From the NCBI GenBank assembly GCA_937930535.1, contig CALGKJ010000226.1, positions 1-33,895 on the forward strand: a stretch of DNA of 33,895 bases, written 5' to 3'. This document shows, piece after piece, positions 4,175 through 18,585 of this stretch (its first letter is position 1; the number at the start of each line of letters is the position of its first letter). The notes beneath the pieces are model-generated. The model saw only the letters and a program-made list of their open reading frames with translations. It was not told the origin of the DNA and made no database searches. The DNA is from an uncultured Clostridia bacterium (GTDB lineage: Bacteria; Bacillota; Clostridia; Lutisporales; Lutisporaceae). Both the position numbers and the translations under genes were made by a program.

Positions 4175-4231
4175 TCATTATTGAAATAATGCGTCATTAT
4201 TGAAATAAGGCGTCATTATTGGAATAATGAC
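4175..4231. repeat. Triple 19-bp palindromic tandem repeat at the rnfA/rnfB junction
   Basis: Three consecutive 19-bp units occupy 4175-4193, 4194-4212 and 4213-4231. The core is CATTATTGAAATAATG, itself a dyad (CATTATT-GA-AATAATG), followed by a GCG or GAC spacer. Units differ at one to three positions. The third unit supplies the last codons and stop of rnfA. No T-run follows, so it is not an ordinary terminator. It could act as an operator, an RNA-processing or stability element, or a block tuning rnfB expression. Confidence 0.85.
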
Positions 4232-4797
4232 AGACCACTAAAGCCTAAAAATGCTATGGATAGCAAGCTGGCAGTAATAAGTGCTATAGGAAATCCTTCC
4301 AGGGCCTTTGGAATCGGCGCTGTCTCAAGTCTTTCTCTCACACCTGCAAACAATACGATTGCCAGTGTAAAGCCCAGTGCTGCACCTATTCCATTTATTA
4401 AGGTCTCTATAAGATTATATTTTTCTTGTATATTTAGTATTGTAACACCCAGTACCGCACAGTTTGTTGTTATTAGGGGCAGATATACCCCTAGTGCTTG
4501 ATACAATGTGGGACTGGTCTTTTTAATTACCATTTCTACAAACTGAACCAACCCTGCAATAACTAATATAAAAGCAATAGTCTGCATATACCCAATGCCC
4601 AGAAGATCTAATACAAATATCTGCACCAGCCAAGTTATAACAGATGCCAAGCCCATTACGAAGGTTACGGCAAGACCCATTCCTAATGCGGTTTCAACCT
4701 TCTTTGAAACTCCAAGAAAAGGGCATATCCCAAGAAATCTTGAGAGGACAAAGTTATTTACCAGTATTGCACTTATCAAAATAGCAGCTATTTTCAT
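4216..4797 (-). CDS. rnfA: Rnf complex subunit A, integral membrane
   Basis: 193 aa, full length, with about six hydrophobic segments. RnfA and RnfE are inverted homologues that form the membrane core and are known to hold an iron-sulfur cluster between them. The two expected half-site motifs are present: [16 protein letters not shown] with C25, and [10 protein letters not shown] with C113. The ATG has a strong AGGAGGGGG ribosome site and lies 13 bp after rnfE. It is the only rnf gene here starting with ATG. The last codons (SLFQ and stop) fall inside the 19-bp repeat array. Confidence 0.96.
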
Positions 4798-4810
4798 TTA
4801 TGTCCCCCTC

Positions 4811-5407
4811 CTAACTCTTTTTCTTAGCAGTCAACTTATTAACTGCTGCTATGGTAAGACCCAAAACAAGGAATCCTCCTGGCGGAAGTATCATTATCAA
4901 TGCGGGATCAAAGCCCTCACCAAATAGCTTTATTCCAAAGAAAGTTCCTGCTCCCAGTACCTCTCTGAATGTACTTATTATTACTAACGCAATAGTAAAA
5001 CCAATACCCATACCGATAGCATCCAATATTGAAGCTGACGGCTTGTTTTTTGAAGCAAATGCTTCTGCCCTTGCAAGTATTATACAGTTAACAACTATAA
5101 GAGGTATAAATATTCCTAAAGCTTTATCCAGTTCCGGTGAAAAAGCTTGAATTAGCATCTGAACAACCGTTACAAATGAAGCAATAATAACTACATAAAT
5201 GGGTATTCTTACTTCGCTTGGAACGATTTTGTTAATTAGTGATATAATTAAATTTGAACCAATAAGTACAACCGTAGCAGCTATACCCATGCCAATACCG
5301 TTAAATACCGCGGTAGTTACTGCAAGTACTGGACACATGCCAAGTACAAGTCTTAGTACTGGATTTTCATTTACAATTCCATTTGTAAGTACCTTTAACT
5401 GTTTCAC
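4811..5407 (-). CDS. rnfE: Rnf complex subunit E, integral membrane
   Basis: 198 aa, with about six membrane segments. It is a homologue of RnfA and its partner in the membrane core of the ion-pumping ferredoxin:NAD+ oxidoreductase. Family motifs are [17 protein letters not shown] near the N terminus and [18 protein letters not shown], each supplying a conserved Cys that matches those in RnfA. The start is GTG, preceded by GGAGGTG with a five-base spacing. It is 20 bp after rnfG and 13 bp before rnfA. The C terminus is lysine-rich (TAKKKS), consistent with a cytoplasmic end. Confidence 0.96.
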
Positions 5408-5427
5408 AATATCACCTCCAAAACTTT

Positions 5428-5991
5428 TTATTTGTTACTCAATTCATTTGCAGCTGCCATAGCCTGATTTACTCCTACTGTTACAGCATTAGAGGTAATA
5501 GTAGCACCTGCAATAGCTACAACTTCATTTTCTTTTGGAGTTCCGTTTTTTATTACTGCTATATCACTGTCCCAAGTCTTTTCTTGATATTGTCCTTCAA
5601 ATTGAGGGTTAGCGGCATTTTTACCCAAACCTGGTGTCTCAGTATTATTACCAACGCTTATTCCCTGAACAATTCCATTGATATCCACGCCGACTATTAT
5701 CTCTATCGGACCTGCATAGCCTTTAGAAGTAACCTTTACAGCATAGCCTACAAGCTCTCCGTTTGACTTGCCTTCATAAATTTCATCTACCATTGCAAGA
5801 CTCGGGTTACTATATTCAACTTTATTAAACTCTGTTGCGACAGGAAGTACTGTCTGTCGTGCTTCATCATTTGCCTTTGCTATTTGTTCTTGAATCTTTC
5901 CTGAGGTAAAGGAGTTAGTAAAACCCAAAAGTGTAGCGGCTATTAAGCAAACTAATACAAGTATTCCTGTAAGTCTTATATAATCACGCAC
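5428..5991 (-). CDS. rnfG: Rnf complex subunit G, FMN-binding
   Basis: 187 aa. One N-terminal membrane anchor ([18 protein letters not shown]) precedes an extracytoplasmic FMN-binding domain. In this family ApbE attaches FMN covalently to the Thr of a Dxx(S/T)GAT motif. Here the motif reads [10 protein letters not shown], so Thr164 is the predicted attachment residue, but the Asp and Ser/Thr positions are Val158 and Ala161. [11 protein letters not shown], a conserved substrate-side loop, is intact. The start is GTG, 8 bp inside the end of rnfD, with a GGGAGGTG ribosome site, so it is translationally coupled to rnfD. No apbE gene is visible in the window. Confidence 0.93.
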
Positions 5992-6937
5992 TTTTCTTCA
6001 CCTCCCCGAATTTCTTAGGCATTGTATATCTGTCAATAAGAGGAGTAGCAACGTTCATTAGTAATATGGAATAAGATACTCCTTCTGGATACCCTCCATA
6101 GAACCTGATAACTGCCGTGATGACTCCACATCCTATACCCATTATTATTTGCCCTTTAGCAGTCATAGGTGATGATGAATAATCGGTGGCCATGAAGAAG
6201 GCTCCAAGGAATAAACCACCAGCAAATATGTGATATACCGCCATATTCATATCAAGTCCGCTAAACAGAAATGCTAAAATACCAACTGTACCAATAAAGC
6301 TTGCTGGTACTCTATAATTGATTACACCTCTAAGCATTAAATACAAACCGCCCAAAAGCAGCAGTGCCGCTGAGGTTTCTCCTATACATCCACCCACATT
6401 GCCAACAAATAAATCCATTATACTTGGCAGCGGCTGACCCACAACTTCTGTGCCTTTTGCCAATGCAAGGGGAGTAGTCGTAGTTATAGCATCTATCCCT
6501 GGAGTAATCCATGCTGTCATTTTTTGGGGCCATGAGGCAAGCAGCATTGCTCTTGCCGCCAAAGCAGGGTTAATAAAATTGTGTCCTACTCCTCCAAAGC
6601 ATTGCTTTACTATTGCAATAGCAAATATTGAACCAATAGACACCATCCAAAGGGGGGCTGTCGGCGGTACATTAAAGGCTACTAATATACCTGTAACTAC
6701 AGCACTTAAGTCATTTACTGTAATGGGTCTTTTCATAATACTTTGCATTGCTGCCTCAGCAGCAACGGCAGATAATACAGCAACTATCGTTATTAGTAAT
6801 GCATTTAACCCAAAATACCATACACCGGCAATCAAGGCAGGCAGCAGTGCAATTACTACGTCTAGCATAATCCTCTTAGTGGATTCACCTGACCTGATAT
6901 GAGGTGATGATGAAACTACATATTTTCTGCTTTCCAA
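5984..6937 (-). CDS. rnfD: Rnf complex subunit D, integral membrane flavoprotein
   Basis: 317 aa, with roughly eight to ten hydrophobic segments. RnfD carries covalent FMN and lies on the electron path next to RnfG; it is homologous to NqrB. The characteristic N-terminal SSSPHIRSGEST, the FGGVGHNFINPALAARAM segment and the flavin site DAITTTTPLA are visible, with Thr155 the predicted attachment residue. The start is TTG, with GGGAGTGAT about nine bases upstream. It begins 15 bp after rnfC and overlaps rnfG by 8 bp. Confidence 0.95.
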   Translation of the reverse strand: MESRKYVVSSSPHIRSGESTKRIMLDVVIALLPALIAGVWYFGLNALLITIVAVLSAVAAEAAMQSIMKRPITVNDLSAVVTGILVAFNVPPTAPLWMVSIGSIFAIAIVKQCFGGVGHNFINPALAARAMLLASWPQKMTAWITPGIDAITTTTPLALAKGTEVVGQPLPSIMDLFVGNVGGCIGETSAALLLLGGLYLMLRGVINYRVPASFIGTVGILAFLFSGLDMNMAVYHIFAGGLFLGAFFMATDYSSSPMTAKGQIIMGIGCGVITAVIRFYGGYPEGVSYSILLMNVATPLIDRYTMPKKFGEVKKSA

Positions 6938-6952
6938 ACTTTATCACTCCCA

Positions 6953-8299
6953 TTATTTATTTTGAGCCAATTGAGATTTTCTTCTTTTTGCCATTATTTC
7001 ACGTTTTGCAACCCTTATAGAATCAACAAGAGGTCTTTTGGCAGGGCACACAAAAGAACAGCTTCCGCACTCAATACAGTCCAATGCATGATGTGATTCA
7101 GCTTGCTCGAATTTATCCTGTAGAGCATATGCACTTAAATTGATAGGCATCAGGTTTATGGGACATACATCCACACATTTTCCGCATCTAATACAATTGG
7201 AAGGCTCAGGTAATCTGGCTTCCGCTTCACTTAGTATCAGTATCCCCGATGTACCTTTAACTACAGGCACATCCAAAGAGAATTGTGCTATACCCATCAT
7301 TGGGCCTCCTGAAATGATCTTTCCTATGCTATCAGTTAATCCTCCGCACTGCTCTATTACGTCTCTAAAGGATGTACCTATTTTAACCAATAGATTCTTA
7401 GGAGTTTTTACACCTTTGCCAGTTATAGTAACAATCCGTTCAACTAGCGGCATTCCAGTCCTGATAGCATCTGCAATAACCGCTGCTGTGCCCACATTGT
7501 TAACTACAACGCCAACATCTGCCGGAAGTCCTCCTGATGGAACCTGCCGCTTTGTGCATGCATATATTAACTGCTTTTCTGCTCCCTGAGGATATTTAGT
7601 GCGCAGCCCAACCACTTCTATTTCTGGTGCTGCTTTTGCTGCATTAAACAGAGCTTCAATAGCATCGGGCTTGTTATTCTCAATTCCTATATATCCCTTA
7701 CTAACTCCCATGGATTTCATAAGTGCCTGCAATCCAAAAACTACTTTTTCTGGATGCTCAAGCATTAATCTATGGTCTGAAGTAAGATAAGGTTCGCACT
7801 CAGCTCCATTTAATACTATAGTATCAACCTTTTTCCCCGGAGGAGGCGATAACTTAACATGAGTCGGAAATGCAGCACCACCCATCCCAACAATACCAGC
7901 TTCTTTAATTATGGTTTTTATGTGGTCTGCTGATAATTGTTCCAATCTTCCTTTGGGGACAATGCCTTCATATAGAGTATCCTCCATGTCAGATTCAATC
8001 ACTATGCAGGTTACCTTGCCTCCACCTGAGTAAAGTCTTGCTTCTATGGCAACTACCTTGCCTGATACGCTTGAATGAACAGGTGAAGAAACGAAGCCTT
8101 TAGCTTCACCAATTTTTTGTCCCAGCTTTACTTCGTCACCCACTTTAACAATAGGCTCGCATGGTGCTCCAATATGCTGCTGCATAGGTATAACTATAAC
8201 TCTAGGTGAATTTGCTTTCTCTACAAGCAGCTTTTCTGTCGCCTTCTTGCTGTGAGGTGGATGAGTTCCGCCCTTAAAGGTCAACGTTCTAATATTCAA
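6953..8299 (-). CDS. rnfC: Rnf complex subunit C, NADH-binding
   Basis: 448 aa, the usual length for clostridial RnfC. It is the peripheral NAD(H)/FMN subunit, related to NuoF. The N-terminal TFKGGTHPP signature leads into the nucleotide region GMGGAAFPTHVK (138-149) and NGAECEPYLTSDH, then an SLBB-like section. Two [4Fe-4S] sites follow: CIRCGKCVDVCP (C369, C372, C375, C379) and CIECGSCSFVCP (C408, C411, C414, C418). The start is TTG behind AGGGGTGAG. It is the first gene of the rnf operon, transcribed away from a 567-bp regulatory region. I see no convincing -35/-10 pair close to it. Confidence 0.96.
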   Translation of the reverse strand: MNIRTLTFKGGTHPPHSKKATEKLLVEKANSPRVIVIPMQQHIGAPCEPIVKVGDEVKLGQKIGEAKGFVSSPVHSSVSGKVVAIEARLYSGGGKVTCIVIESDMEDTLYEGIVPKGRLEQLSADHIKTIIKEAGIVGMGGAAFPTHVKLSPPPGKKVDTIVLNGAECEPYLTSDHRLMLEHPEKVVFGLQALMKSMGVSKGYIGIENNKPDAIEALFNAAKAAPEIEVVGLRTKYPQGAEKQLIYACTKRQVPSGGLPADVGVVVNNVGTAAVIADAIRTGMPLVERIVTITGKGVKTPKNLLVKIGTSFRDVIEQCGGLTDSIGKIISGGPMMGIAQFSLDVPVVKGTSGILILSEAEARLPEPSNCIRCGKCVDVCPINLMPINLSAYALQDKFEQAESHHALDCIECGSCSFVCPAKRPLVDSIRVAKREIMAKRRKSQLAQNK

Positions 8300-8553
8300 A
8301 ATTACTCACCCCTTAAATAAAATAATAGTATTTTAATATAAGTATTTCTATATAAATACCGATAAGGATTCTACATCTACCAAAGGTAAGAAATGGTATT
8401 TATATTTGACAGAACACGAACATATCGACTGCTTGACGTAGATTCTCAACGTGTTCTATATAATTATGTTTTGATTTTTAAGCCAGTTATACACATCTTT
8501 AAATTTTATTCGACGCGTGTATACAAAATCCTTTAGCCCTATTTTCATTTAGA

Positions 8554-8588
8554 TAATTAATTATTTAACAAAAAATTGAACAGTTCAA
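8554..8588. promoter_or_regulatory. Possible Rex-like operator plus adjacent 13-bp dyad
   Basis: TAATTAA-TTAT-TTAACAA at 8554-8571 matches 12 of 14 fixed positions of the Rex consensus TTGTTAA-N4-TTAACAA. Rex is the NADH/NAD+-sensing repressor of fermentation genes in Firmicutes. Immediately after it, TTGAAC-A-GTTCAA (8576-8588) is a perfect dyad. The sites are about 270 bp upstream of rnfC, and AT-rich sequence makes chance matches likely. Confidence 0.3.
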
Positions 8589-8744
8589 CAGAAATTTTAA
8601 CTAAAAAACCAGCTTTACAATATTGTTGTTTTACACAAAAGTAGAAATTTCAAGCTTTGTTTCTTTATTATTCTTCTAATAAGCATATTAATATGCCGCT
8701 GGAAATTGTTTTATTTTAGATAATATGTTTTAATTTCATGAATT

Positions 8745-8813
8745 ATGTAAATACTATTTATATCAAAACCCTAATTAAAGAAAGTCAATGTAGGACTTTA
8801 AAAGTATTTACAT
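8745..8813. repeat. Nested inverted repeats upstream of DUF3189
   Basis: ATGTAAATACT (8745-8755) and AGTATTTACAT (8803-8813) are perfect inverted repeats 47 nt apart. Inside them AAAGTC (8781-8786) pairs with GACTTT (8794-8799). The element ends 53 bp before the DUF3189 start and could be a leader structure or a spaced operator. Confidence 0.5.
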
Positions 8814-8866
8814 GAATATAGCTATAAGCATTAATTAAATTCTTTTATACAACAGAGGTGAGTAAG

Positions 8867-9391
8867 ATGATAATAATCTATAACTGCTATGGTGGTACAC
8901 ATTCCTCCATATTATCCTCTGCAATACATCTTGGTCTTCTTCCCAAGGATAGAATTCCAAGCAAAAAAGAAATACTGGAACTTAAGTATTTCAATAAGCT
9001 TACTTATAAAGATATGGGGCGCCTTATTTTTCACGGAATTGATGAGGATGGCAATAAAGTGTACACAATAGGAAGAGGAACTTCAAAGGCGCTGATCCCA
9101 GCTATGAGAAACCTGACAAGTGAGTTTCATAATGTTTATAAAATAAATGACACCTTTGCTTTTATAAACTGCTCACCAACCGTCCCTCCAACCATGACCA
9201 TCGGCGGCTTCTTTTCGAGAGGCTTAAAAATAAATGTTATCGGTGTCCCCTTACTAGCTATGGGGGCTCGAAAAAACTATTTTAAAACAATTGAATTGGT
9301 TGAAAAAACTAAAAAACTGTGCCGTGATAAATACCCAGAATATACAATTATTGATTTAGATGCAAAAGGTCGCCTAAGCTTATTGAACTAA
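8867..9391 (+). CDS. DUF3189 family protein
   Basis: 174 aa from the ATG. It opens with IIYNCYGGTHSSILSSAIHLGLLP, the typical start of DUF3189 proteins, and continues with ELKYFNKL and VIGVPLLAMGARKNY. No membrane segments or signal peptide, so probably cytoplasmic. The function is unknown; the family is found mainly in anaerobic Firmicutes. A GTG nine bases upstream lies inside the ribosome site AGAGGTGA, so the ATG five bases after it is the better start. It is a single plus-strand gene between the rnf and NADH-subunit operons. Confidence 0.85.
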   Translation: MIIIYNCYGGTHSSILSSAIHLGLLPKDRIPSKKEILELKYFNKLTYKDMGRLIFHGIDEDGNKVYTIGRGTSKALIPAMRNLTSEFHNVYKINDTFAFINCSPTVPPTMTIGGFFSRGLKINVIGVPLLAMGARKNYFKTIELVEKTKKLCRDKYPEYTIIDLDAKGRLSLLN

Positions 9392-9525
9392 TATACTCAT
9401 ACTGCACTCAACTCGCATGTACGTTTTATAGTATACTAGCGTATGCAGAAAATTGCACTGATAATATATAGCATATAATGCAAGCTCTGCAAGCTTAGAC
9501 GACCTTTAATTAATTATTTAACGAA

Positions 9526-11319
9526 TTATTGTTTTACTATTGCCTTGAATGGACATTTTTCCAAACATACTCCGCATTTAACGCACTTAGCACTGTCAAT
9601 TACATATGGAGTCTTTGGTTTTCCTGAAATACAAGAAACTGGACACTGTTTAGCACAGATTCCGCAGCCCTTACATTTTTCTTCAATAACAAAGTACTTA
9701 GCAAGCCCTTGACATACGCCTGCTGGACATTTTTTATCCTTAATATGAGCTTCATATTCGTCTCTGAAATACGTTAATGTTGACAATACAGGGTTTGGTG
9801 CCGTTTGCCCCAATCCGCATAAAGAAGCATTTTTTATAGTGTGTGCTAGAGTTTCCAGCATTTCTATATCGCCTTTTTCGCCTTTGCCTTCTGTAATTTT
9901 GTCAAGTATTTCAAGCATTCTCTTAGTACCTTCACGGCATGGTGTACATTTTCCGCAGGATTCATCAACTGTAAAGTCAAGGAAGTATCTTGCTATGTCA
10001 ACCATACAGTTATCTTCGTCCATTACGATAAGTCCGCCTGAACCCATCATTGAGCCAAGAGCTATAAGGTTATCATAATCAATTTCTACATCCAGATGCT
10101 CTGCTGGTATACATCCGCCTGAAGGTCCTCCTGTTTGCGCAGCTTTATATTTCTTACCGTTAGGTATTCCTCCGCCGATTTCAAATATAACCTCTCTCAT
10201 TGTTGTACCCATTGGTATTTCAACAAGACCTGTGTTATTTATTTTTCCACCTAATGCGAATACTTTTGTACCCTTTGATTTTTCTGTACCCATGCTTGCA
10301 AACCACTCTGGACCATTAAGGAATATTTGTGGAATATTTGCATAAGTTTCAACGTTATTTAATATTGTTGGTTTTCCAAATAGACCTTTTACTGCCGGGA
10401 ATGGAGGTCTTGGTCTTGGCATACCTCTTTCGCCTTCGATAGAAGCAATAAGCGCGGTTTCCTCTCCGCATACGAAAGCTCCTGCACCAAGTCTTACTTC
10501 CATATCAAACTTAAAGCCTGTTCCAAGTATATTATCACCAAGCAAACCATATTCTCTTGCTTGATTTATTGCAATTGTAAGACGTTTAACAGCTATTGGA
10601 TATTCAGCTCTGCAATATACGTAACCTTGGTCAGCTCCTATTGCATAAGCTGCAATCGTCATAGCTTCAATAATTGCATGAGGGTCTCCTTCCAATACGC
10701 TTCTGTCCATGAATGCACCTGGGTCTCCTTCGTCAGCATTACATAGAACATATTTCTTGTCGTTAACTGATTTTGATGCAAACTCCCATTTCAAACCAGT
10801 TGGGAATCCGCCGCCCCCTCTTCCTCTTAAGCCGGAACGTTTAACAACATCGATTACTTCTGCTGGTGTCATTGTAGTAAGTACCTTCTCTATAGCTTTA
10901 TAGCCGTCAAAAGCTATATATTCATCTATATTTTCAGGATTGATAACACCGCAGTTTCTTAGTGCAACTCTAACCTGCTTCTTATAAAAATCAACTTCAT
11001 TTATTGATTTGATTTTATCTTCTGCAACTGTCTCAGCATATAGAAGTCTCTTTACTACTCTACCCTTTAAAAGGTGCTCTTTAACGATTTCTTCTACATC
11101 TTCTGGTTTAACCTGACTGTAGAATGATGCTTCTGGATATATTATAACAATTGGTCCTAAAGCGCAAAGACCGAAGCAACCTGTTCTTTCAACAACTACT
11201 TCATTTTCAAGACCATGCTTTTTTAATTCAGCTTCAAAATTTTGTGCGATTCGCTCGGAACCAGCAGAGTTACAACCTGTACCCTTGCAAATCATAACAT
11301 GGGAACGATACATTTCCAT
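9526..11319 (-). CDS. hydB: NuoF/HydB-type NADH-binding flavin iron-sulfur subunit
   Basis: 597 aa, matching HydB/HndC of multimeric NAD(P)-dependent [FeFe] hydrogenases rather than plain NuoF. Domain order: N-terminal thioredoxin-like [2Fe-2S] domain (C11, C16, C48, C52); FMN/NADH fold with RGRGGGGFPTGLKWEF (165-180) and NADEGDPGAFMDR; SLBB region; NADH-dehydrogenase [4Fe-4S] site SCGKCTPC (C455, C458, C461 with C501); and a C-terminal two-cluster ferredoxin (C549-C559 and C579-C589). It oxidises or reduces NAD(H) and passes electrons to the other subunits. ATG behind AGGAGG. Last gene of its operon; a HydA gene, often next, is not present. Related subunits also serve formate dehydrogenases. 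Confidence 0.92.
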   Translation of the reverse strand: MEMYRSHVMICKGTGCNSAGSERIAQNFEAELKKHGLENEVVVERTGCFGLCALGPIVIIYPEASFYSQVKPEDVEEIVKEHLLKGRVVKRLLYAETVAEDKIKSINEVDFYKKQVRVALRNCGVINPENIDEYIAFDGYKAIEKVLTTMTPAEVIDVVKRSGLRGRGGGGFPTGLKWEFASKSVNDKKYVLCNADEGDPGAFMDRSVLEGDPHAIIEAMTIAAYAIGADQGYVYCRAEYPIAVKRLTIAINQAREYGLLGDNILGTGFKFDMEVRLGAGAFVCGEETALIASIEGERGMPRPRPPFPAVKGLFGKPTILNNVETYANIPQIFLNGPEWFASMGTEKSKGTKVFALGGKINNTGLVEIPMGTTMREVIFEIGGGIPNGKKYKAAQTGGPSGGCIPAEHLDVEIDYDNLIALGSMMGSGGLIVMDEDNCMVDIARYFLDFTVDESCGKCTPCREGTKRMLEILDKITEGKGEKGDIEMLETLAHTIKNASLCGLGQTAPNPVLSTLTYFRDEYEAHIKDKKCPAGVCQGLAKYFVIEEKCKGCGICAKQCPVSCISGKPKTPYVIDSAKCVKCGVCLEKCPFKAIVKQ

Positions 11320-11360
11320 TTATATTTACCTCCTAACAGTTTCTTACTGTAGCTTTCATA

Positions 11361-11726
11361 TTAATCTTCTGAACCTATTGTATATTCATCAACAACCTTA
11401 CCCTGCATAATGTGTTCATTTACTATTCTTAATGCTTTAGAAGGTGTTACTTTTACGTATGTTACCTTTTCTTCATTTGGTCTATATACTTCAACTATAG
11501 GCTCAAGTCTGCACATTCCAATACAGCCAGTCTGAGTAACTGCTACATCAGAAAGATTGTTTTTCTTAACTTCGTCCATTACTGTTAAAAGAACTGGTCT
11601 AGCTCCTGCTGCAATACCGCATGTAGCCATACCAACAACAACTCTTGTTCCTGTTCTTTCTTTTCTTATATTAATAGTATCAAGGGTTCTCTTTCTTATT
11701 TCCTCTAACTCTTTTATAGATTTCAT
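11361..11726 (-). CDS. Thioredoxin-like ferredoxin, HndB-type
   Basis: 121 aa. The motifs MATCGIAAGARPV (C36) and QTGCIGMCRLEP (C68, C72) place it in the HndB/thioredoxin-like [2Fe-2S] family found in bifurcating hydrogenase operons. Only three Cys are present instead of the four needed for a canonical [2Fe-2S] site, which is common in this subfamily, so cluster binding is uncertain. The ribosome site GGTGGAGGG is encoded by the final codons of the upstream ATPase gene, whose stop is two bases before this ATG, so the two are coupled. hydB follows 41 bp later. Confidence 0.85.
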   Translation of the reverse strand: MKSIKELEEIRKRTLDTINIRKERTGTRVVVGMATCGIAAGARPVLLTVMDEVKKNNLSDVAVTQTGCIGMCRLEPIVEVYRPNEEKVTYVKVTPSKALRIVNEHIMQGKVVDEYTIGSED

Positions 11727-11728
11727 TA

Positions 11729-12295
11729 TTATATCCCTCCACCTAAATTACTAAGACCTTCTGCTATATAATCTTTAATCCAGTTTAAAATGTCTGGTTC
11801 TGTTAAAGGCACTTCACTGCCGAGTAATTTTTTCACTTCTCTTGTATCAAAACAGAACTCTGATAAACTGGACTTTTTATTTATAATTATGTGTTTATAT
11901 AGAAAGTCTGTATAAGTACTGCACAGAATAAGACTGATTAGTGTCTCAGCCATGCTACCGATTGGTACTCTATCTATATGGCTGTGTTTAAAAACAGCTG
12001 TTAGATTTGTACCTACGTTAACTTCAGAAGAAATTGTTAAATCTCCATCGCATCTTTGACATGCAGCAAGCATCAAGGGTATACCAAGACCAACTTTTCT
12101 GCTGGTTCTGCTAGTAACAAAAGGATCCTTAACTTTTGCAAGAAGCTCCTTATCCATGCCATGACCATTATCATTTATCTCAATGGTAAGCCAGTCAGCA
12201 GCTAAATCTTCTTTAATAACAATTTCTGTTAGTGTAGCACCTGCTGAAATAGAGTTCTGCACTAAATCCAGTATATGAAGTGAAAGTTCTTTCAT
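11729..12295 (-). CDS. GHKL-fold ATPase, histidine-kinase-like without H-box
   Basis: 188 aa. The N-box DLVQNSISAGA, G1 box DNGHGM and G2 box GLGIPL are clear, so it should bind ATP in a histidine-kinase-type fold. There is no phospho-acceptor His domain and no membrane segment. The C-terminal half (about residues 100-188) has no motif I recognise. Proteins of this type sit between the NuoE and NuoF genes of clostridial hydrogenase operons; their role is not settled. It starts two bases after the hydC stop with no good ribosome site, suggesting translational coupling. Confidence 0.85.
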   Translation of the reverse strand: MKELSLHILDLVQNSISAGATLTEIVIKEDLAADWLTIEINDNGHGMDKELLAKVKDPFVTSRTSRKVGLGIPLMLAACQRCDGDLTISSEVNVGTNLTAVFKHSHIDRVPIGSMAETLISLILCSTYTDFLYKHIIINKKSSLSEFCFDTREVKKLLGSEVPLTEPDILNWIKDYIAEGLSNLGGGI

Positions 12296-12297
12296 AA

Positions 12298-12768
12298 TTA
12301 ATATTTGCTTAAAATATCAGGTACATCGTCTGGAACCAGCTTTCCGTAAACGTCTTCATTAACCGTAATTACAGGAGCTAATCCGCAGCAGCCAAGACAT
12401 CTTGTTGCTTCTAAAGTAAATTTGCCATCAGTAGTTGTATCACCAGCTTCAACATTAAGCTCTTTTTTCAATCTGTCAAGAACACCTTGTGCATCCTTTA
12501 CATAACAAGCAGTTCCCATACATACGCTGATTGTAAACTTTCCTCTAGGTTTTAGGGTAAATCTTGAATAGAAAGTTGCAACTCCGAATATTTCTGCCAT
12601 TGGGATATTCAATTCTTCGGAAATTCTCTTTTGCGCTTCTTCCGGCAGGTAACCAAAAAGCTCCTGTGTATCATTAAGTACAGGCATTAGTGCTCCTGGT
12701 TTTTGCTTGTGCTCGTTTATTATATGATCTAACTTGTCCATTTTTTCTTTAAAGGTCATTTCAGCCAT
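12298..12768 (-). CDS. hydC: NuoE/HydC-type [2Fe-2S] subunit
   Basis: 156 aa from the chosen ATG. It is a thioredoxin-like [2Fe-2S] protein of the NuoE family. N-terminal helices with LMPVLNDTQELFGYLP and the conserved FGVATFYSRF precede the cluster ligands in SVCMGTACYV and TRCLGCCGLAP (four Cys, C-x4-C and C-x3-C). It would transfer electrons within the bifurcating enzyme containing HydB. An upstream in-frame start would add 21 residues, but GGAGGG lies nine bases before this ATG, so the shorter form is preferred. First gene of its operon, with a good promoter just upstream. Confidence 0.93.
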   Translation of the reverse strand: MAEMTFKEKMDKLDHIINEHKQKPGALMPVLNDTQELFGYLPEEAQKRISEELNIPMAEIFGVATFYSRFTLKPRGKFTISVCMGTACYVKDAQGVLDRLKKELNVEAGDTTTDGKFTLEATRCLGCCGLAPVITVNEDVYGKLVPDDVPDILSKY

Positions 12769-12802
12769 TAAAGAGTTCCCTCCTTCAAAATACATGATAC
12801 TA

Positions 12803-12831
12803 AATATATCTAATTGACAGAAATTTATCAA
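12803..12831 (-). promoter_or_regulatory. Sigma-A promoter of the hydC-hydB operon
   Basis: On the minus strand TTGATA and TATATT are exactly 17 bp apart, each five of six to consensus. The expected start is about 12796, leaving a leader of roughly 28 nt before the hydC ATG. A TTGTTAA half-site (12876-12882) lies about 45 bp upstream of the -35; a full Rex dyad is not present. The rest of the 322-bp gap (12769-13090) is AT-rich with homopolymer runs and no gene. Confidence 0.7.
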
Positions 12832-13028
12832 TTAAATAGTTCCAAAGAATATTGTAACATAAATAAATTATTTTTTTAACAAAAACTTTTACTTTTTGTG
12901 TAGTTTTTTTTGTTTTTTTGTAGATAAAGCCAAGTCAGCAAAGCTTCAGCCAATATATTAATATGAATTTATACTGTTTTATAGAACGGACTAAATAAAA
13001 TATTCTGATTAACCGCTGCTTATTATTC

Positions 13029-13055
13029 TATAGAGAAGCAACTTCAAAATTAAAT
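13029..13055 (+). repeat. Dispersed repeat, copy B (one arm only)
   Basis: TATAGAGAAGCAACTTCAAA and the next seven bases match the end of the lytic transglycosylase repeat at 29760-29786 at 25 of 27 positions, and copy A similarly. No matching second arm is visible. It lies 35 bp beyond the 3' end of the PHP gene. Confidence 0.55.
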
Positions 13056-13090
13056 TTTTCTTCAGCTTTTAAAGACTGTATATCTATATG

Positions 13091-13807
13091 CTACTCCAGA
13101 TTGTCCAGACTTTTAAAAAGCTCGCTTACACTGAGACAATCCATATCTAAAAAAAATTCTCTCTCATTCATATCCCATAAATAATGAGCGTCAGATGATA
13201 TTATATAATTATATTTTTTCAAAAAAGCCCATTTATTCATTAGTTTTTCTGGTGGATTTTTCTTGGAATATTCCACAGTCTTTACCTTTAAGGCTGGTGG
13301 AATAAAACCTAGATTGCTTATAATACTAAAGCCTTGCTTGTCAACATGTGCAGGTATACATATTCCTCCCAATCCTCTCACTAAAACAAATACGTCATTT
13401 ACTGAAAGTACTGTTGAGGAAAGCAAAAGCTTTTCTTCTTTTCTTATTACCTGATCCTCTGCATCATATACTATCTGCCTTCCAAACACTTCTTCGTTGT
13501 TTTTAATGTTTGGAAGGCTGTTATAAACTATTTCATCAAATCTTTGTGCATTTTCCAGCTTTTTGAACAAGCATATTATGTGGACATCCTCTTTAGTCTG
13601 TACCTCCATACCTGGTATTACCATTAGTCCGTTTTGTACTGCAACCTCCATAACTGCCGGCAGGTTTGCACATGAATTATGGTCTGTTATGGCTATTATA
13701 TCCAAGCCTTTAAGCAATGCCATGTTGACTATGTTATTGGGAGTCATATCCTCATCACCGCATGGCGATAATGCAGTATGAATATGAAAGTCAACTGCAA
13801 ATTCCAT
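13091..13807 (-). CDS. PHP-domain metal-dependent phosphoesterase-like protein
   Basis: 238 aa. PHP-domain metal ligands are visible in order: HIHT (H8, H10), TDHNS (D42, H43), E68, H76, PAHVDK (H154) and SSDAH (D206, H208). The active site therefore appears complete, and the protein should be a cytoplasmic phosphoesterase of the TrpH-like type; its substrate is unknown. It starts one base after the stop of the DRTGG gene and is the last gene of the hydrogenase-like sensor operon. PHP genes are often found in this context in anaerobic Firmicutes. In this position it may act as an output or nucleotide-processing component, which is inference. Confidence 0.88.
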   Translation of the reverse strand: MEFAVDFHIHTALSPCGDEDMTPNNIVNMALLKGLDIIAITDHNSCANLPAVMEVAVQNGLMVIPGMEVQTKEDVHIICLFKKLENAQRFDEIVYNSLPNIKNNEEVFGRQIVYDAEDQVIRKEEKLLLSSTVLSVNDVFVLVRGLGGICIPAHVDKQGFSIISNLGFIPPALKVKTVEYSKKNPPEKLMNKWAFLKKYNYIISSDAHYLWDMNEREFFLDMDCLSVSELFKSLDNLE

Positions 13808-13808
13808 G

Positions 13809-14147
13809 CTATTTACCTATTCCCATTTCATTAAAAGCAGTTGCAAGCTGATATGCACTTAATGAGCATGAGAGTACTGGTATATTCTCTTCGTCTGCTT
13901 TTACAATTGTATCCTCATCAATTTCAATTCCCTCAGGCACAATTATGCAGCCTAGCTCCAGCAATGATGCTACTGCAATAACATTTGAATGTGTCATTAC
14001 AGTAATCCATGCATCACCCTTTTGTGCATGTGACATAACCCAGCTTAACAAATCACAAATATATACACCTGTTATATCATTTTCAAGTCCATTACCTCCA
14101 GCAGCTACCTTTAAATTCAACTTTTCACATATATCTCTTAGTTTCAT
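13809..14147 (-). CDS. DRTGG-domain protein 1
   Basis: 112 aa, a single small domain: MKLRDICEKLNLKV...ITGVYICDLLSWVMSHAQKGDAWITVMTH...LLELGCIIVPEG. This resembles the DRTGG domain, which also occurs in phosphotransacetylase-associated and CBS-containing proteins. Its ligand is unknown; nucleotide binding has been suggested. No membrane segment or signal peptide. It lies 15 bp after the hydrogenase-like gene and one base before the PHP gene. A second, divergent DRTGG protein is encoded in the same operon (15971-16321). Confidence 0.8.
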   Translation of the reverse strand: MKLRDICEKLNLKVAAGGNGLENDITGVYICDLLSWVMSHAQKGDAWITVMTHSNVIAVASLLELGCIIVPEGIEIDEDTIVKADEENIPVLSCSLSAYQLATAFNEMGIGK

Positions 14148-14162
14148 TTTATCACCTCTATA

Positions 14163-15443
14163 TTAATTTCTTTTTTTATTTCTAAAGTTTTCCATTGTTT
14201 TAACCAGGCACACTGACCTAGGGTTTTCACCTCTTACGATATCCTCCGCAAATGCCTTGCAGGTGGGAGCACCGCATACACCGCAATCCAAGCCAGGCAG
14301 ATACTTGAGGATTTCTTTTATCATTTCCATTTTCTTAATAGACTTGGTTATATCGTTATCCAGCCGCATTATTGATCTTGGCTCTATTTCGCAGGTTAGC
14401 CTTATCAATCCATCCTCGTACATCTTTATAGAATTGTCTATATATTCTTTGGAATATTCTGCAGGCGGCAGACTTTTCGCCAAGGTTCTGATTCTGTTTC
14501 GTGATATAAAGGAGTTTTCTATTGTTAATGGACCTCCTACGCAGCCCCCTAGACAAGCGACGCCTTCAAAAAACTCCAAGCCGTCAAGTTTATCCATTTC
14601 TATTTCTTCAAGCACTTTAATTACTTCACTTATCCCATCAACTGCAAGATAGTTCTCTATTCCAAGTGCTCTGGACTGTCCTCCAATAATAGGCCATAAT
14701 ATAGAGCTTGAGTTGCTTCTTACTAACTGTTCCTTACAGCTGCCGCCAAGATTTCTAAGTATCTCGCCGAAAACCGCTTTCATAGAAACAACTCCATCAA
14801 CATATGAACGTTCGATTCCAATGGGATTTCTTATACTGGTCACTCTTGCTGTGCAGGGTGATATAAAAATTACACCTATATCCTTTATATCCAGTCCCAG
14901 CCTCTTTGATACTTCGTGCTTGGCGATTCTCGCTGTAACCTCAATAGGTGTCTCAATATCAATAATATTAGGCAGCAAATCTGGAAACCTGATTTGTATT
15001 AGACGCAATATTGCGGGGCAGCTGGAGTTAATCAGCGGCTTTTCATGCTTTTTATTTAATATATGGTTTGCAATTACAGTAGTAATGGCTTCTGATCCTG
15101 TAGTTGCCTCATAAACCTCATCAAAACCTAGATTTTTTACAGCCGATAACATTTGTGCAATACTTGTTTTACTTGGAAACTGCCCATATAGCACTAACGA
15201 AGGTATGGCAATTGTGTACTTAAACTTCTTTATAATATCTAAATAATTATCTGCAATTGCACTTTTTGCGTGGTTAGGACATATTCTAATGCATTCTCCG
15301 CAATCTATACACTTTTCTCCTATTATTCTTGCCTTTCCATCCCTTAATCTAATTGCTTCTGTGGGACATACCTTAAGACAACTTGTACATCCAATGCATC
15401 TGTCCTCTTGTAATATAACTGAATGGAAGTACTTATTGTCCAT
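14163..15443 (-). CDS. [FeFe]-hydrogenase-like iron-sulfur protein, probable redox/H2 sensor
   Basis: 426 aa. Domain order: two-cluster ferredoxin (C16, C19, C22, C26 and C45, C48, C51, C55); [FeFe]-hydrogenase large-subunit H-cluster domain (about 75-325); C-terminal Fes-type [4Fe-4S] motif LDCGVCGAPTC (C387, C390, C395, C412). The H-cluster Cys ligands are retained: C142 (NSSCP), C197 (SPCTAR), C297 and C301 (VACLGGCVGG). The usual proton-transfer Cys before C142 is Ser141, and the lysine of PCxxK is Arg200. These changes match sensory (group C/D-type) hydrogenases rather than catalytic ones. No PAS domain. ATG directly follows the stop of the RsbW-like gene. A signalling role is inferred. 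Confidence 0.85.
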   Translation of the reverse strand: MDNKYFHSVILQEDRCIGCTSCLKVCPTEAIRLRDGKARIIGEKCIDCGECIRICPNHAKSAIADNYLDIIKKFKYTIAIPSLVLYGQFPSKTSIAQMLSAVKNLGFDEVYEATTGSEAITTVIANHILNKKHEKPLINSSCPAILRLIQIRFPDLLPNIIDIETPIEVTARIAKHEVSKRLGLDIKDIGVIFISPCTARVTSIRNPIGIERSYVDGVVSMKAVFGEILRNLGGSCKEQLVRSNSSSILWPIIGGQSRALGIENYLAVDGISEVIKVLEEIEMDKLDGLEFFEGVACLGGCVGGPLTIENSFISRNRIRTLAKSLPPAEYSKEYIDNSIKMYEDGLIRLTCEIEPRSIMRLDNDITKSIKKMEMIKEILKYLPGLDCGVCGAPTCKAFAEDIVRGENPRSVCLVKTMENFRNKKRN

Positions 15444-15875
15444 CTAATCACCCGCTTTCAAAAGAATCTCCATCGTAATAGTTGTACCCTCTCCATATAC
15501 TGATTCAACAGTAAACCTATCTGTACATTTTTTCATATTCGGAAGTCCCATACCTGCTCCAAAGCCCATTTCACGCACTTTTTCGCTGGCAGTAGAATAT
15601 CCTTCCTGCATTGCAAGCTCAATATTCGGAATACCAGGTCCTCTATCTCTGGCGGTAACTTTAATGGAATTTGGATCTATTTCCAATTCAACCTGTCCTC
15701 CAACAGAATGTATTACTATATTCATTTCTGCTTCATAGGTAGCTATTGCTATCCTCCTAACAATAGCAGAATCAATCCCCAACTCTCTCAATGTTCTTTT
15801 AATATTGCTGGAAGCCTCTCCTGCTCTAACGAAGTCATCCTTTTCCACATCAAAAGTGTATTTCATAAACTCCAT
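15444..15875 (-). CDS. RsbW/SpoIIAB-like serine kinase-type ATPase
   Basis: 143 aa from the chosen ATG. It is a single GHKL ATPase domain of the anti-sigma-factor type: N-box EAEMNIVIHS, G1 box DRGPGI and G2 box GAGMGLPNMKKCTDRF. Family members phosphorylate anti-sigma antagonists and bind sigma factors; no sigma factor or antagonist gene is next to it here. An upstream in-frame start would encode the ribosome site GGAGG itself, so the ATG at 15875, eight bases after it, is preferred; a GTG one codon earlier is also possible. The stop abuts the ATG of the hydrogenase-like gene, so the two are tightly coupled. Confidence 0.86.
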   Translation of the reverse strand: MEFMKYTFDVEKDDFVRAGEASSNIKRTLRELGIDSAIVRRIAIATYEAEMNIVIHSVGGQVELEIDPNSIKVTARDRGPGIPNIELAMQEGYSTASEKVREMGFGAGMGLPNMKKCTDRFTVESVYGEGTTITMEILLKAGD

Positions 15876-15970
15876 CACATTATCCTCCAAAACCATTTAT
15901 TATGTTAATAAATCAACGTAGGTTAATAAAATTCACTTATTATGCTGCTTTTTAGTATCCTAATAAACAG

Positions 15971-16321
15971 CTAGTCAAGATTTATTCCCTCTAATCCATT
16001 ACAAAAAAGCTTTCCAGATGCTGTATACATTGAGTCTTTAGTCGTAAATAATATCATATTATTTTGCTTTGCCAAGTTCACTATATCATTTTCTGGTCTT
16101 TTACCTCTCACAAAAACAATGGCTGTCAAGTCGGCCATTTCTGCTGTTCTAATAACCTGAGAGTTAATAAGTCCTGTTAACAATATGGTTCTTCCTTTTA
16201 CATAAGCCAAAACATCACTCATAAGATCTGAACCAAAAGCGTATGAGACTTCATTTTCCAAAAATTCATCACCACATAATACTTCTGCTTTTAGTATATC
16301 CTTTATTTCGCAAAGTTTCAT
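15971..16321 (-). CDS. DRTGG-domain protein 2
   Basis: 116 aa from the ATG eight bases after GGAGGG; an in-frame extension of 24 residues upstream lacks a ribosome site and would overlap the SPOR gene. It has the same pattern as the other DRTGG protein: MKLCEIKDILKAEVLCG...AFGSDLMSDVLAYVKGRTILLTGL...AIVFVRGKRP. It probably forms a small alpha/beta domain and may bind a nucleotide-like ligand. It precedes the RsbW-like ATPase by 95 bp. Two DRTGG proteins flanking ATPase and hydrogenase-like genes suggest paired or heteromeric function. Confidence 0.8.
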   Translation of the reverse strand: MKLCEIKDILKAEVLCGDEFLENEVSYAFGSDLMSDVLAYVKGRTILLTGLINSQVIRTAEMADLTAIVFVRGKRPENDIVNLAKQNNMILFTTKDSMYTASGKLFCNGLEGINLD

Positions 16322-16389
16322 AGTTTGCGCCCTCCCATTAGTATATTTCATAACCATATATTTCATTTCAAGTTTATTTACATTTTGTA

Positions 16390-17208
16390 TCATAAGCCCA
16401 TTTCTCTTTTAAACTTTTCTACAAGCTGCAATTGGTTAAGCAAGCTGTTCTGAACATAGTAGTAGCTCTTAGCATTGTCAACTTCTATTCTAAACTCTAA
16501 TAATTCTTTTAAAAGCATTTCGTACTTTTGAGCCAGAACGTTTTTAGATTTATCCTTATCTAAATTCTCGAACACAAGTCTATAGCTTTCCAATTGACTC
16601 TCCTTGTCCAATACTTCCTGTAAAAGCTCCACATTTTCAAGCTCTGGATCTTCCAATATTTTTATACTAAGCTCTGACTTTGAGTTCAATACCTCTAATA
16701 TAACCACATCAGCTTTATTCGCTGTATTTACAAATTCACCATCTTCACTTATATATATCGGATTATTGTTAGGAATATTCTTAGAAGTGTTTATTTCTAC
16801 TATTGCATTTTCGACACTAAGATTAGCAAGTGTCTTTTTTGCAGCCCTTGCTGCTTCCTCCTTAGTAAATACTCCAAATATTACTATAAATCCTTTTTCT
16901 TTTAATATAAAAGCGTTAAGCTTTTTTTCTTTAACAGCATCTATGGTTTTTGCAGCTTCCTCATAAGTATCATGTCGGCTTATTTCTATTCTGTAAAGTT
17001 TAAAGGATTTGTTGCCGATTAAATAATTAAAGGCAGTTTTTGAATTGTTAGACTTATTATTAATAAAATTGAGATTTCCATTATATATATTTACTACTAC
17101 AATGGAAGTAATTATTGCTGCTACTGGTATAAATATAAAAAAATTTGCAAAGATACCTACAGACTTTTTACGTTCTTTTTGTTTTTGGTAAGTTCTTTTA
17201 ATTCTCAT
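16390..17208 (-). CDS. SPOR-domain single-pass membrane protein
   Basis: 272 aa from the ATG. A basic N terminus (KRTYQKQKERKK) is followed by one membrane helix (about residues 15-41, FFIFIPVAAIITSIVVVNIY). Outside is a SPOR-like region (about 68-140) with YRIEISRHDTYEEAAKTIDAV and FIVIFGVFTKEEAARAAKK. The C-terminal third is charged and probably helical. SPOR domains bind denuded peptidoglycan at division or spore septa. An upstream in-frame TTG would overlap the GGGGAAGTGG ribosome-site region, so the ATG is preferred. First gene of the sensor operon by position, preceded by a good promoter. Confidence 0.75.
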   Translation of the reverse strand: MRIKRTYQKQKERKKSVGIFANFFIFIPVAAIITSIVVVNIYNGNLNFINNKSNNSKTAFNYLIGNKSFKLYRIEISRHDTYEEAAKTIDAVKEKKLNAFILKEKGFIVIFGVFTKEEAARAAKKTLANLSVENAIVEINTSKNIPNNNPIYISEDGEFVNTANKADVVILEVLNSKSELSIKILEDPELENVELLQEVLDKESQLESYRLVFENLDKDKSKNVLAQKYEMLLKELLEFRIEVDNAKSYYYVQNSLLNQLQLVEKFKREMGL

Positions 17209-17278
17209 AAGTCCACTTCCCCACAAAGTGATATATAGGGCTTTTATAGATAAAAGCTACAATGAAGTTGTTCTTTAT

Positions 17279-17307
17279 ATTATACTTCAATATGCTTCGC
17301 AGTACAA
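17279..17307 (-). promoter_or_regulatory. Sigma-A promoter of the SPOR-to-PHP operon
   Basis: On the minus strand TTGTAC and a perfect TATAAT are separated by exactly 17 bp. The predicted start is near 17272, about 64 nt before the SPOR-protein ATG. No internal terminator is visible between 17208 and 13091, so it may drive all six genes. Confidence 0.7.
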
Positions 17308-17401
17308 ATTAATTTTTACAGAATTATACATACTATAATTTTATAATAATTATTGATAGTGAAAAAAGTTTGTATTAAAATTAAGTAAAGGAGTGAAATA
17401 G

Positions 17402-17980
17402 ATGTCTTCAATGCTGAATAACATACTAAGACAAAAACTAATGCAAATACAAAGCCAATTGCCTCCATATGTAAAAATTATAAAGGACAAACCCTTTAAT
17501 TTTGAAAATGTATTAAGTGATGAAATTAGTCCTGATAACCTGACACAAACTGAATTAGACTCTGTTTCATCAAATTATTATAATAATATTGATTATAAAG
17601 GTGATTACAGTGAACTAATTGAACAGGCATCAAAAAAATACAATATAGGCAGTAATATTATAAAGGCAGTAATCAAAGCTGAATCGAATTTTAAACCCAA
17701 TGTTGTTTCTACAGCAGGAGCTATGGGGCTTATGCAATTAATGCCTGGCACAGCCGAAGGGCTTGGTGTAAAAAATGCCTTTGATCCTGCGCAAAATATC
17801 GACGGAGGCGTTCGCTACTTAAAGTCCATGCTTAAGGAATTCGGTGGTAATCTTGAACTTGCCTTGGCTGCGTATAATGCCGGACCCGGCAATGTTAAAA
17901 AATATGGAGGAATACCGCCATTTAAGGAGACTCAAGATTACGTTAAAAAAATCATGGGATACTTACGTAATAAAGTGTAA
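17402..17980 (+). CDS. Lytic transglycosylase, SLT domain, no signal peptide
   Basis: 192 aa. The C-terminal half (about 68-188) is a Slt70-like domain: catalytic Glu in IKAESNF, then [23 protein letters not shown] and [12 protein letters not shown]. Such enzymes cleave peptidoglycan between MurNAc and GlcNAc, forming anhydroMurNAc. The N-terminal 65 residues are polar with no signal peptide or membrane helix, so export would need another route. The start has AAGGAG eight bases upstream. It is transcribed divergently from the SPOR-protein operon and ends at a strong terminator, so it is a single-gene unit. Confidence 0.88.
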
Positions 17981-17984
17981 ATTT

Positions 17985-18017
17985 AAAAATAACTCCTCAT
18001 TTAGCGGAGTTATTTTT
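17985..18017 (+). terminator. Rho-independent terminator of the lytic transglycosylase gene
   Basis: AAAAATAACTCC and GGAGTTATTTTT form a perfect 12-bp stem with a 9-nt loop and T-rich end, five bases after the stop codon. The A-rich 5' arm means it may also act on the convergent GNAT transcript. Confidence 0.88.
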
Positions 18018-18054
18018 ATTTTGCTTAAATACCGAGTCCAAAAGAAATTTAATA

Positions 18055-18585
18055 TTAAATATCCTTTTTCATTATAATAAAATCCTCAGTATTATTATTT
18101 AATCTAATATATTGCTCAATAGTTCTTAAGTAGTCGAATCCAAGGTTTTGCCAGAACTTTTTGCCAACCTTGTTGCCTGCAATAATCCCAATATATATTC
18201 TTCTGACATCGTAGGATTTATTTAGAAGCTGCATTATTGAGCCAATTGATCTTTTTCCTATTCCTTTTTTCTGATAGCTGCTGTCAATAAGTATAGATGA
18301 AATCCATGCTTCCTCATTGTTTTCATAATCAATTCTGCCCTTAATTACACCTATAAGATCATAAATAGCACTATCTCTTAAAAAAACACCAGTAAAGAAC
18401 TCATGACTATTTACAAGCACCTCAAGATATTTTTCATTAATGTCGTTTAAGGACATTGGCAAATCAATTCCTGTGGCATAAATATTCAGTTCATTTTGAT
18501 TATACAGCTCAAGTACTTTTTCAAGATTTTCCTTTCGGATATCTCTAAAAACTAAATTGTCACTTTCTATGTTGATTTTTAACAT
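18055..18585 (-). CDS. GNAT-family N-acetyltransferase
   Basis: 176 aa, a single GNAT domain. It has the N-terminal LVFRDIRKENLEKVLELY, the acetyl-CoA loop in SSYQKKGIGKRSIGSI (motif A, Q/RxxGxG/A) and the C-terminal GNKVGKKFWQNLGF typical of the fold. The acceptor substrate cannot be inferred. The ATG follows AAAGGTGA. It is probably a single-gene unit convergent with the lytic transglycosylase. The 252 bp upstream are AT-rich and contain no gene. Confidence 0.88.
   Translation of the reverse strand: MLKINIESDNLVFRDIRKENLEKVLELYNQNELNIYATGIDLPMSLNDINEKYLEVLVNSHEFFTGVFLRDSAIYDLIGVIKGRIDYENNEEAWISSILIDSSYQKKGIGKRSIGSIMQLLNKSYDVRRIYIGIIAGNKVGKKFWQNLGFDYLRTIEQYIRLNNNTEDFIIMKKDI

Follow-up and report, generated by a model that had tools for sequence, protein, structure and literature searches.

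Analysis of the window, that is the whole stretch of 33,895 nucleotides from an uncultured Clostridia bacterium, revealed a group D [FeFe]-hydrogenase (HydS) encoded together with four small signalling companions, and this core was near-universal among the group D loci sampled, which is the new addition of this work. On balance we hold it moderately probable that the six genes of the window operon make up the sensing half of a group D [FeFe]-hydrogenase cluster, in which an H2 or redox sensor acting through RsbW-type partner switching would adjust the neighbouring hydC unit. The placement and biochemistry of group D, and the position of its genes upstream of bifurcating hydrogenases, are already published (PMC3561251, PMC3608648, PMC8163306); added here are the five-gene core, the optional SPOR protein, a correction to a published flanking gene, the odd lineage of the window, and the hydC promoter with its palindrome.

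Six minus-strand ORFs were found between 13091 and 17226, confirming, coordinate for coordinate, the six same-strand genes of the preliminary description. The gene for a SPOR-type single-pass membrane protein (16390..17208; ATG at 17208, alternative TTG at 17226) is followed by those for DRTGG-domain protein 1 (DRTGG1; 15971..16321, PF07085 7.2e-9, the true start probably being the ATG at 16321), an RsbW/SpoIIAB-like GHKL ATPase (15444..15896, HATPase_c 2.6e-11), HydS, a group D (M2e) putative sensory [FeFe]-hydrogenase carrying Q256 and R200 (14163..15443; two Fer4 domains, Fe_hyd_lg_C and a C-terminal FeS motif), DRTGG-domain protein 2 (DRTGG2; 13809..14147, PF07085 4.5e-8) and a PHP-domain predicted metallo-phosphoesterase (13091..13807, PF02811 1.1e-10). 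The DRTGG, HATPase, Fe_hyd_lg_C and PHP domains proposed earlier scored above the Pfam cut-offs, while the SPOR copy of the window fell below (E 0.03). Tight spacing, also proposed earlier, was found between RsbW and HydS (0 bases) and between DRTGG2 and PHP (1 base), but the remaining gaps measured 15 to ~74 bases. The candidate promoter of the sensor operon, TTGTAC-17-TATAAT (17279..17307, minus strand; TATAAT at 17279-17284 and TTGTAC at 17302-17307), is present exactly as described; its -35 hexamer, however, matches TTGACA at just 3 of 6 positions and the consensus scan did not list it. Searches for RNA families found none in window positions 8000-18500.

The cluster extends past 13091 on the same strand, a part on which the preliminary description was silent, with hydC (NuoE-type; 12298..12768, ATG at 12768, PF01257 2.2e-52), a second GHKL ATPase (11729..12295, HATPase_c 2.7e-14, conserved D10, N14, D42, G44 and G46), a 2Fe-2S thioredoxin-like ferredoxin (11361..11726, NF041612 1.8e-11, under that model's cut-off) and hydB (NuoF-type; 9526..11319, PF01512 and PF10589). 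No hydA follows hydB, and this absence had likewise gone unmentioned. Past hydB lie a convergent DUF3189 gene (plus strand, 8858-9391) and then an rnf operon (4216-8299); these occupy the expected place of hydA, and the same arrangement was seen again in relatives.

Profiles were made from the window proteins and neighbourhoods were read in 80 loci plus further relatives; because loci were picked by HydS similarity, the counts hold for the group D sample taken here. The gene-neighbourhood search suggested in the preliminary description showed that the DRTGG-RsbW-HydS-DRTGG-PHP core recurs complete in 71 of the 79 loci with room for it, so that the arrangement is far beyond chance and the linkage of HydS to the RsbW-like ATPase, the two DRTGG proteins and the PHP protein is conserved. 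DRTGG2 and PHP were jointly absent in seven of the eight exceptions, and this loss was concentrated in loci without a nearby hydB (Fisher p 0.0006, which overstates the association because only about three events are found on the tree). Eight loci carried the full core with no hydB nearby, and the core is therefore a self-contained module. Median gaps of 0-13 bases within the core, against 150 between PHP and hydC, suggest two transcription units.

Other genes were found beside the module in some lineages. A Rex gene lies directly upstream of RsbW or DRTGG1 in L054 and L111 (both Pfam-checked) and in L102 (by sequence likeness), a sensor kinase and response regulator adjoin RsbW in L077 and L097, and in L069 (5924-7153) the product of the gene immediately before DRTGG1 is a partial match to the nickel-dependent hydrogenase family. 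The HydS modules of L096 (recorded as Syntrophorhabdales), L106 (Deltaproteobacteria) and L045 (Sumerlaeota) were placed among Bacillota rows of the tree, which points to horizontal transfer or to an error of binning.

The ATP site of the RsbW-like ATPase is intact, with E55 (the catalytic Glu), N59, D84, G86, G88 and G111-G117; over 89 loci E55, N59, D84 and the glycines were conserved, the ATP-site residues at 0.99-1.00. Its nearest solved structures are those of SpoIIAB (1til/1l0o), and it shares with the SpoIIAB/RsbW kinases the GHKL fold, the N-box Glu and Asn, and the G-boxes. Unlike those systems, the window operon contains no STAS antagonist and no sigma factor, which is why the protein is called RsbW-like and not RsbW; its partners would be the DRTGG proteins. 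Conserved residues were D56, S59 and T73 in DRTGG1 (numbering of the 140-aa ORF) and D32, S35, W47, T49 and N55 in DRTGG2. The metal ligands of the PHP protein (H8, H10, D42, H43, E68, H76, H154, D206 and H208) were conserved at 0.99-1.00 in 80 loci. Residues 14-16 of this protein, Ser-Pro-Cys after the HxH motif, were invariant in 80/80 loci and are a possible redox or metal site.

Neither a helix-turn-helix nor a STAS protein is encoded in the five-gene core, which therefore lacks a route to DNA. A core lacking a DNA-binding output would also be expected if the genes served local redox housekeeping and had no part in signalling, both GHKL ATPases being chaperone-like and the PHP and DRTGG proteins acting in nucleotide metabolism; DRTGG domains are indeed found in pyrophosphatases too, although the match is weak. 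The resemblance of the RsbW-like ATPase to anti-sigma F kinases, together with the loci in which Rex or a response regulator joins or replaces RsbW, makes this explanation unlikely in our judgement.

The sensor-type hydrogenase proposed earlier proved to be of group D (M2e), the class of TamHydS from Thermoanaerobacter mathranii, a slow, H2-responsive enzyme judged putatively sensory (PMC8163306, PMC10407848, PMC11803613). HydS consists of an N-domain with two [4Fe-4S] sites, an H-domain and a C-terminal Cx2Cx4Cx16C motif (C387-C390-C395-C412), with no PAS domain. The H-cluster Cys 142, 197, 297 and 301, Ser141 and Arg200 were all as first reported; proton-transfer Cys299 is absent (S141) and the Met353 position carries the Ser/Thr typical of group D (S195). 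The window HydS is 42-52% identical to group D members from other families, against ~33% for the next class, and was placed with group D by this gap in similarity scores and by trees that held group D rows only. The group C (M2f) proteins TmHydS, HfsB and Ruminococcus albus HydS also have a putative sensory role and, like the window HydS, usually lack Cys299, but group C carries a PAS domain that the window HydS does not.

Positions were transferred from TamHydS through the HydS of Thermoanaerobacter wiegelii (L046), which matches TamHydS at 13/13 checked positions and can be aligned with the window HydS over its full length. TamHydS and the window HydS are alike in domain plan, loss of Cys299, Ser/Thr at Met353, C-terminal [4Fe-4S] motif and a place upstream of hydCB(A). 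They differ in that the window has Ser for Ala137 (S141), Gln for Glu252 (Q256), Ile for Ser249 (I253) and Arg for the PCxxK lysine, and its cluster lacks hydA. Of the four residues of the alternative proton relay proposed for group D, two are kept (D265 as D269, E289 as E293), while those at E252 and S249 are changed. E252, E289 and D265 are reported as highly and S249 as moderately conserved in group D, but not as defining the class (PMC10407848), and for this reason the window HydS was filed as a variant group D member.

The HydS of T. wiegelii is flanked by the RsbW-like ATPase and DRTGG2, the latter matching DRTGG and no helix-turn-helix family. Judged by its position in this close relative, the gene beside TamHydS that the literature gives as an AraC regulator appears to code for a DRTGG protein without a helix-turn-helix. 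The literature search returned no paper tying DRTGG proteins to hydrogenases and one paper containing both words; Calusinska 2010, the likeliest source, lay outside the search.

Loss of the proton-transfer Cys and replacement of the PCxxK lysine had both been taken as marks of groups C/D. The first is such a mark; the lysine, on the contrary, persists in 76 of the 93 group D loci (Arg in 17), and Arg200 is therefore peculiar to the window lineage and one other. The Tam252 residue, whose change the preliminary description had passed over, is Glu in 74, Gln in 17 and Ala in 2 of these loci. The Arg loci are the same 17 as the Gln loci, namely the Lutispora family and L068. All the relatives of L068 (G062-G066) have Gln. 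Two of them, G064 and G065, combine it with Lys and an in-cluster hydA; the other three, G062, G063 and G066, carry Arg and lack hydA immediately downstream. The G066 hydCBA genes follow on the same strand after ~16 kb, and the L068 contig ends in hydC. By parsimony on the tree, the Gln change and the Lys-to-Arg change have two origins each. A rule tying hydA loss to the Lys-to-Arg change was discarded, since 14 loci without a nearby hydB retain Lys; the two co-occur.

Gln256 and Arg200 could weaken H2 activation in the window HydS. In a variant of the sensor reading that leaves the module untouched, HydS of this lineage would not turn over H2 at all, sensing redox by its [4Fe-4S] clusters alone or only binding H2. 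Such a protein would fit the Gln, Ile and Arg found at Tam E252, Tam S249 and the PCxxK lysine, the Lys-to-Arg change in two separate lineages, and the loss of much activity in TamHydS E252 variants (PMC10407848). Against it, HydS retains the full set of four H-cluster Cys as well as Tam E289/D265, the maturases HydEFG are encoded in the genome, and Arg is still able to hydrogen-bond; we consider the variant improbable, though it carries appreciable weight.

To judge from its upstream sequence, the hydC operon has its own promoter, with an extended -10 (TGTTACAAT; 12851..12856, minus strand) that was listed by the promoter scan. What the PHP-hydC gap keeps in Lutisporaceae is mainly an AT-rich -35 region with this extended -10, a 20-bp palindrome and the ribosome site. 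The palindrome, ATTGAYA-N6-TRTCAAT (12813..12832, minus strand), is a candidate operator on the grounds of its conservation; it begins roughly 10-20 bases past the extended -10 in Lutisporaceae gaps and lies inside the TTG-extended reading of hydC, upstream of ATG 12768. It was perfect in 18 of 56 PHP-hydC gaps and in none of the shuffled gaps. The 18 comprised 16/16 recovered gaps of the window family, whose shared ancestry means that the evidence is the contrast with diverged flanks, plus L130 and L131 from other families; most lineages outside the family lack it.

The window palindrome is the sole non-coding exact copy in the genome. A palindrome regulon was rejected, as the only other exact copy in the genome falls within a helicase-like gene and relatives have 0-2 other copies each. 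Several loci have C/A at one of the paired positions, which argues against an RNA hairpin. Rex was set aside, since matches to its box near the operon (8 at <=3 mismatches) were as frequent as expected (7.9), and IscR was dismissed as regulator: the one-mismatch site before iscR resembles the -35 of its promoter, and relatives have no palindrome there.

With hydA gone from the cluster and hydB and hydC still adjacent, HydS might itself be the metabolic hydrogenase subunit for HydB and HydC. This is quite improbable: elsewhere HydS and hydA share a cluster in 33/56 loci, a group A6 HydA is encoded in the genome, the window HydS lacks Glu at the Tam 252 relay position, and group A enzymes are about a thousand times faster than TamHydS (PMC11803613). 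Standalone group A hydA of Lutisporaceae adjoins the formate dehydrogenase alpha gene in G000, G003, G005 and G016, and hydEGF in G000, G001 and G005. The HydA from this locus is the probable partner, in trans, of HydB and HydC in the window family.

At L135 2484-7194 (contig C117 of G000), a group A6 hydA adjoins the formate dehydrogenase alpha gene, with hydE-hydG-hydF divergent; the same genome has a second, complete hydC-fd-hydB-hydA set at L136 7950-12444 (contig C69). The formate dehydrogenase alpha gene of the window genome is split by an in-frame TGA in the context CARL(U)HASTVAGL, at the usual selenocysteine position, and this TGA is probably read as selenocysteine.

The SPOR-like protein has a single N-terminal hydrophobic segment. 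The window copy reached 15.1 bits against PF05036 (cut-off 21) and the L104 copy 35.5 bits, while 19/19 aligned family members matched this model (E up to 0.1; best 1.5e-12). Its gene stands directly before DRTGG1 or the core in 20/93 loci, Thermoanaerobacter included. The protein is thus a genuine but optional operon member, as had been claimed in part; the accompanying link to division or sporulation found no support apart from the SPOR domain itself.

In the partner-switching sensor that we favour, HydS would read H2 or the ferredoxin/redox state through its H-cluster and three accessory [4Fe-4S] sites, with slow turnover, and would pass its state to the RsbW-like ATPase by protein contact. 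The ATPase probably exchanges one DRTGG partner for another and may phosphorylate one of them, and the PHP protein, together with DRTGG2, may be the hydrolase by which the signal is reset or passed on. The neighbouring hydC-ATPase-Fd-hydB unit, which has its own promoter and the conserved candidate operator, would be tuned by this output, the SPOR membrane protein serving as an optional accessory. Regulatory [NiFe]-hydrogenase is a slow H2-sensing enzyme that signals to the ATPase HoxJ, as is proposed here for HydS, although the metal site and kinase type are unrelated. That pair is named in the TamHydS work, whose authors asked by what route a PAS-less group D hydrogenase signals (PMC8163306).

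More tentatively, and in a reading that we rate as rather unlikely, the system may be a new kind of partner switching, with an RsbW-type kinase working on DRTGG instead of STAS proteins and a PHP reset, the sensor having been retuned (E252Q, Lys-to-Arg) in Lutisporaceae and the G061 family as hydA moved away from the sensor cluster. The four near-universal companions with intact active sites are concrete candidate partners of the sensor, and reassigning the TamHydS flank to DRTGG would remove an apparent mis-annotation. At the proposed proton relay and at the cofactor lysine, the window lineage offers naturally occurring variants.
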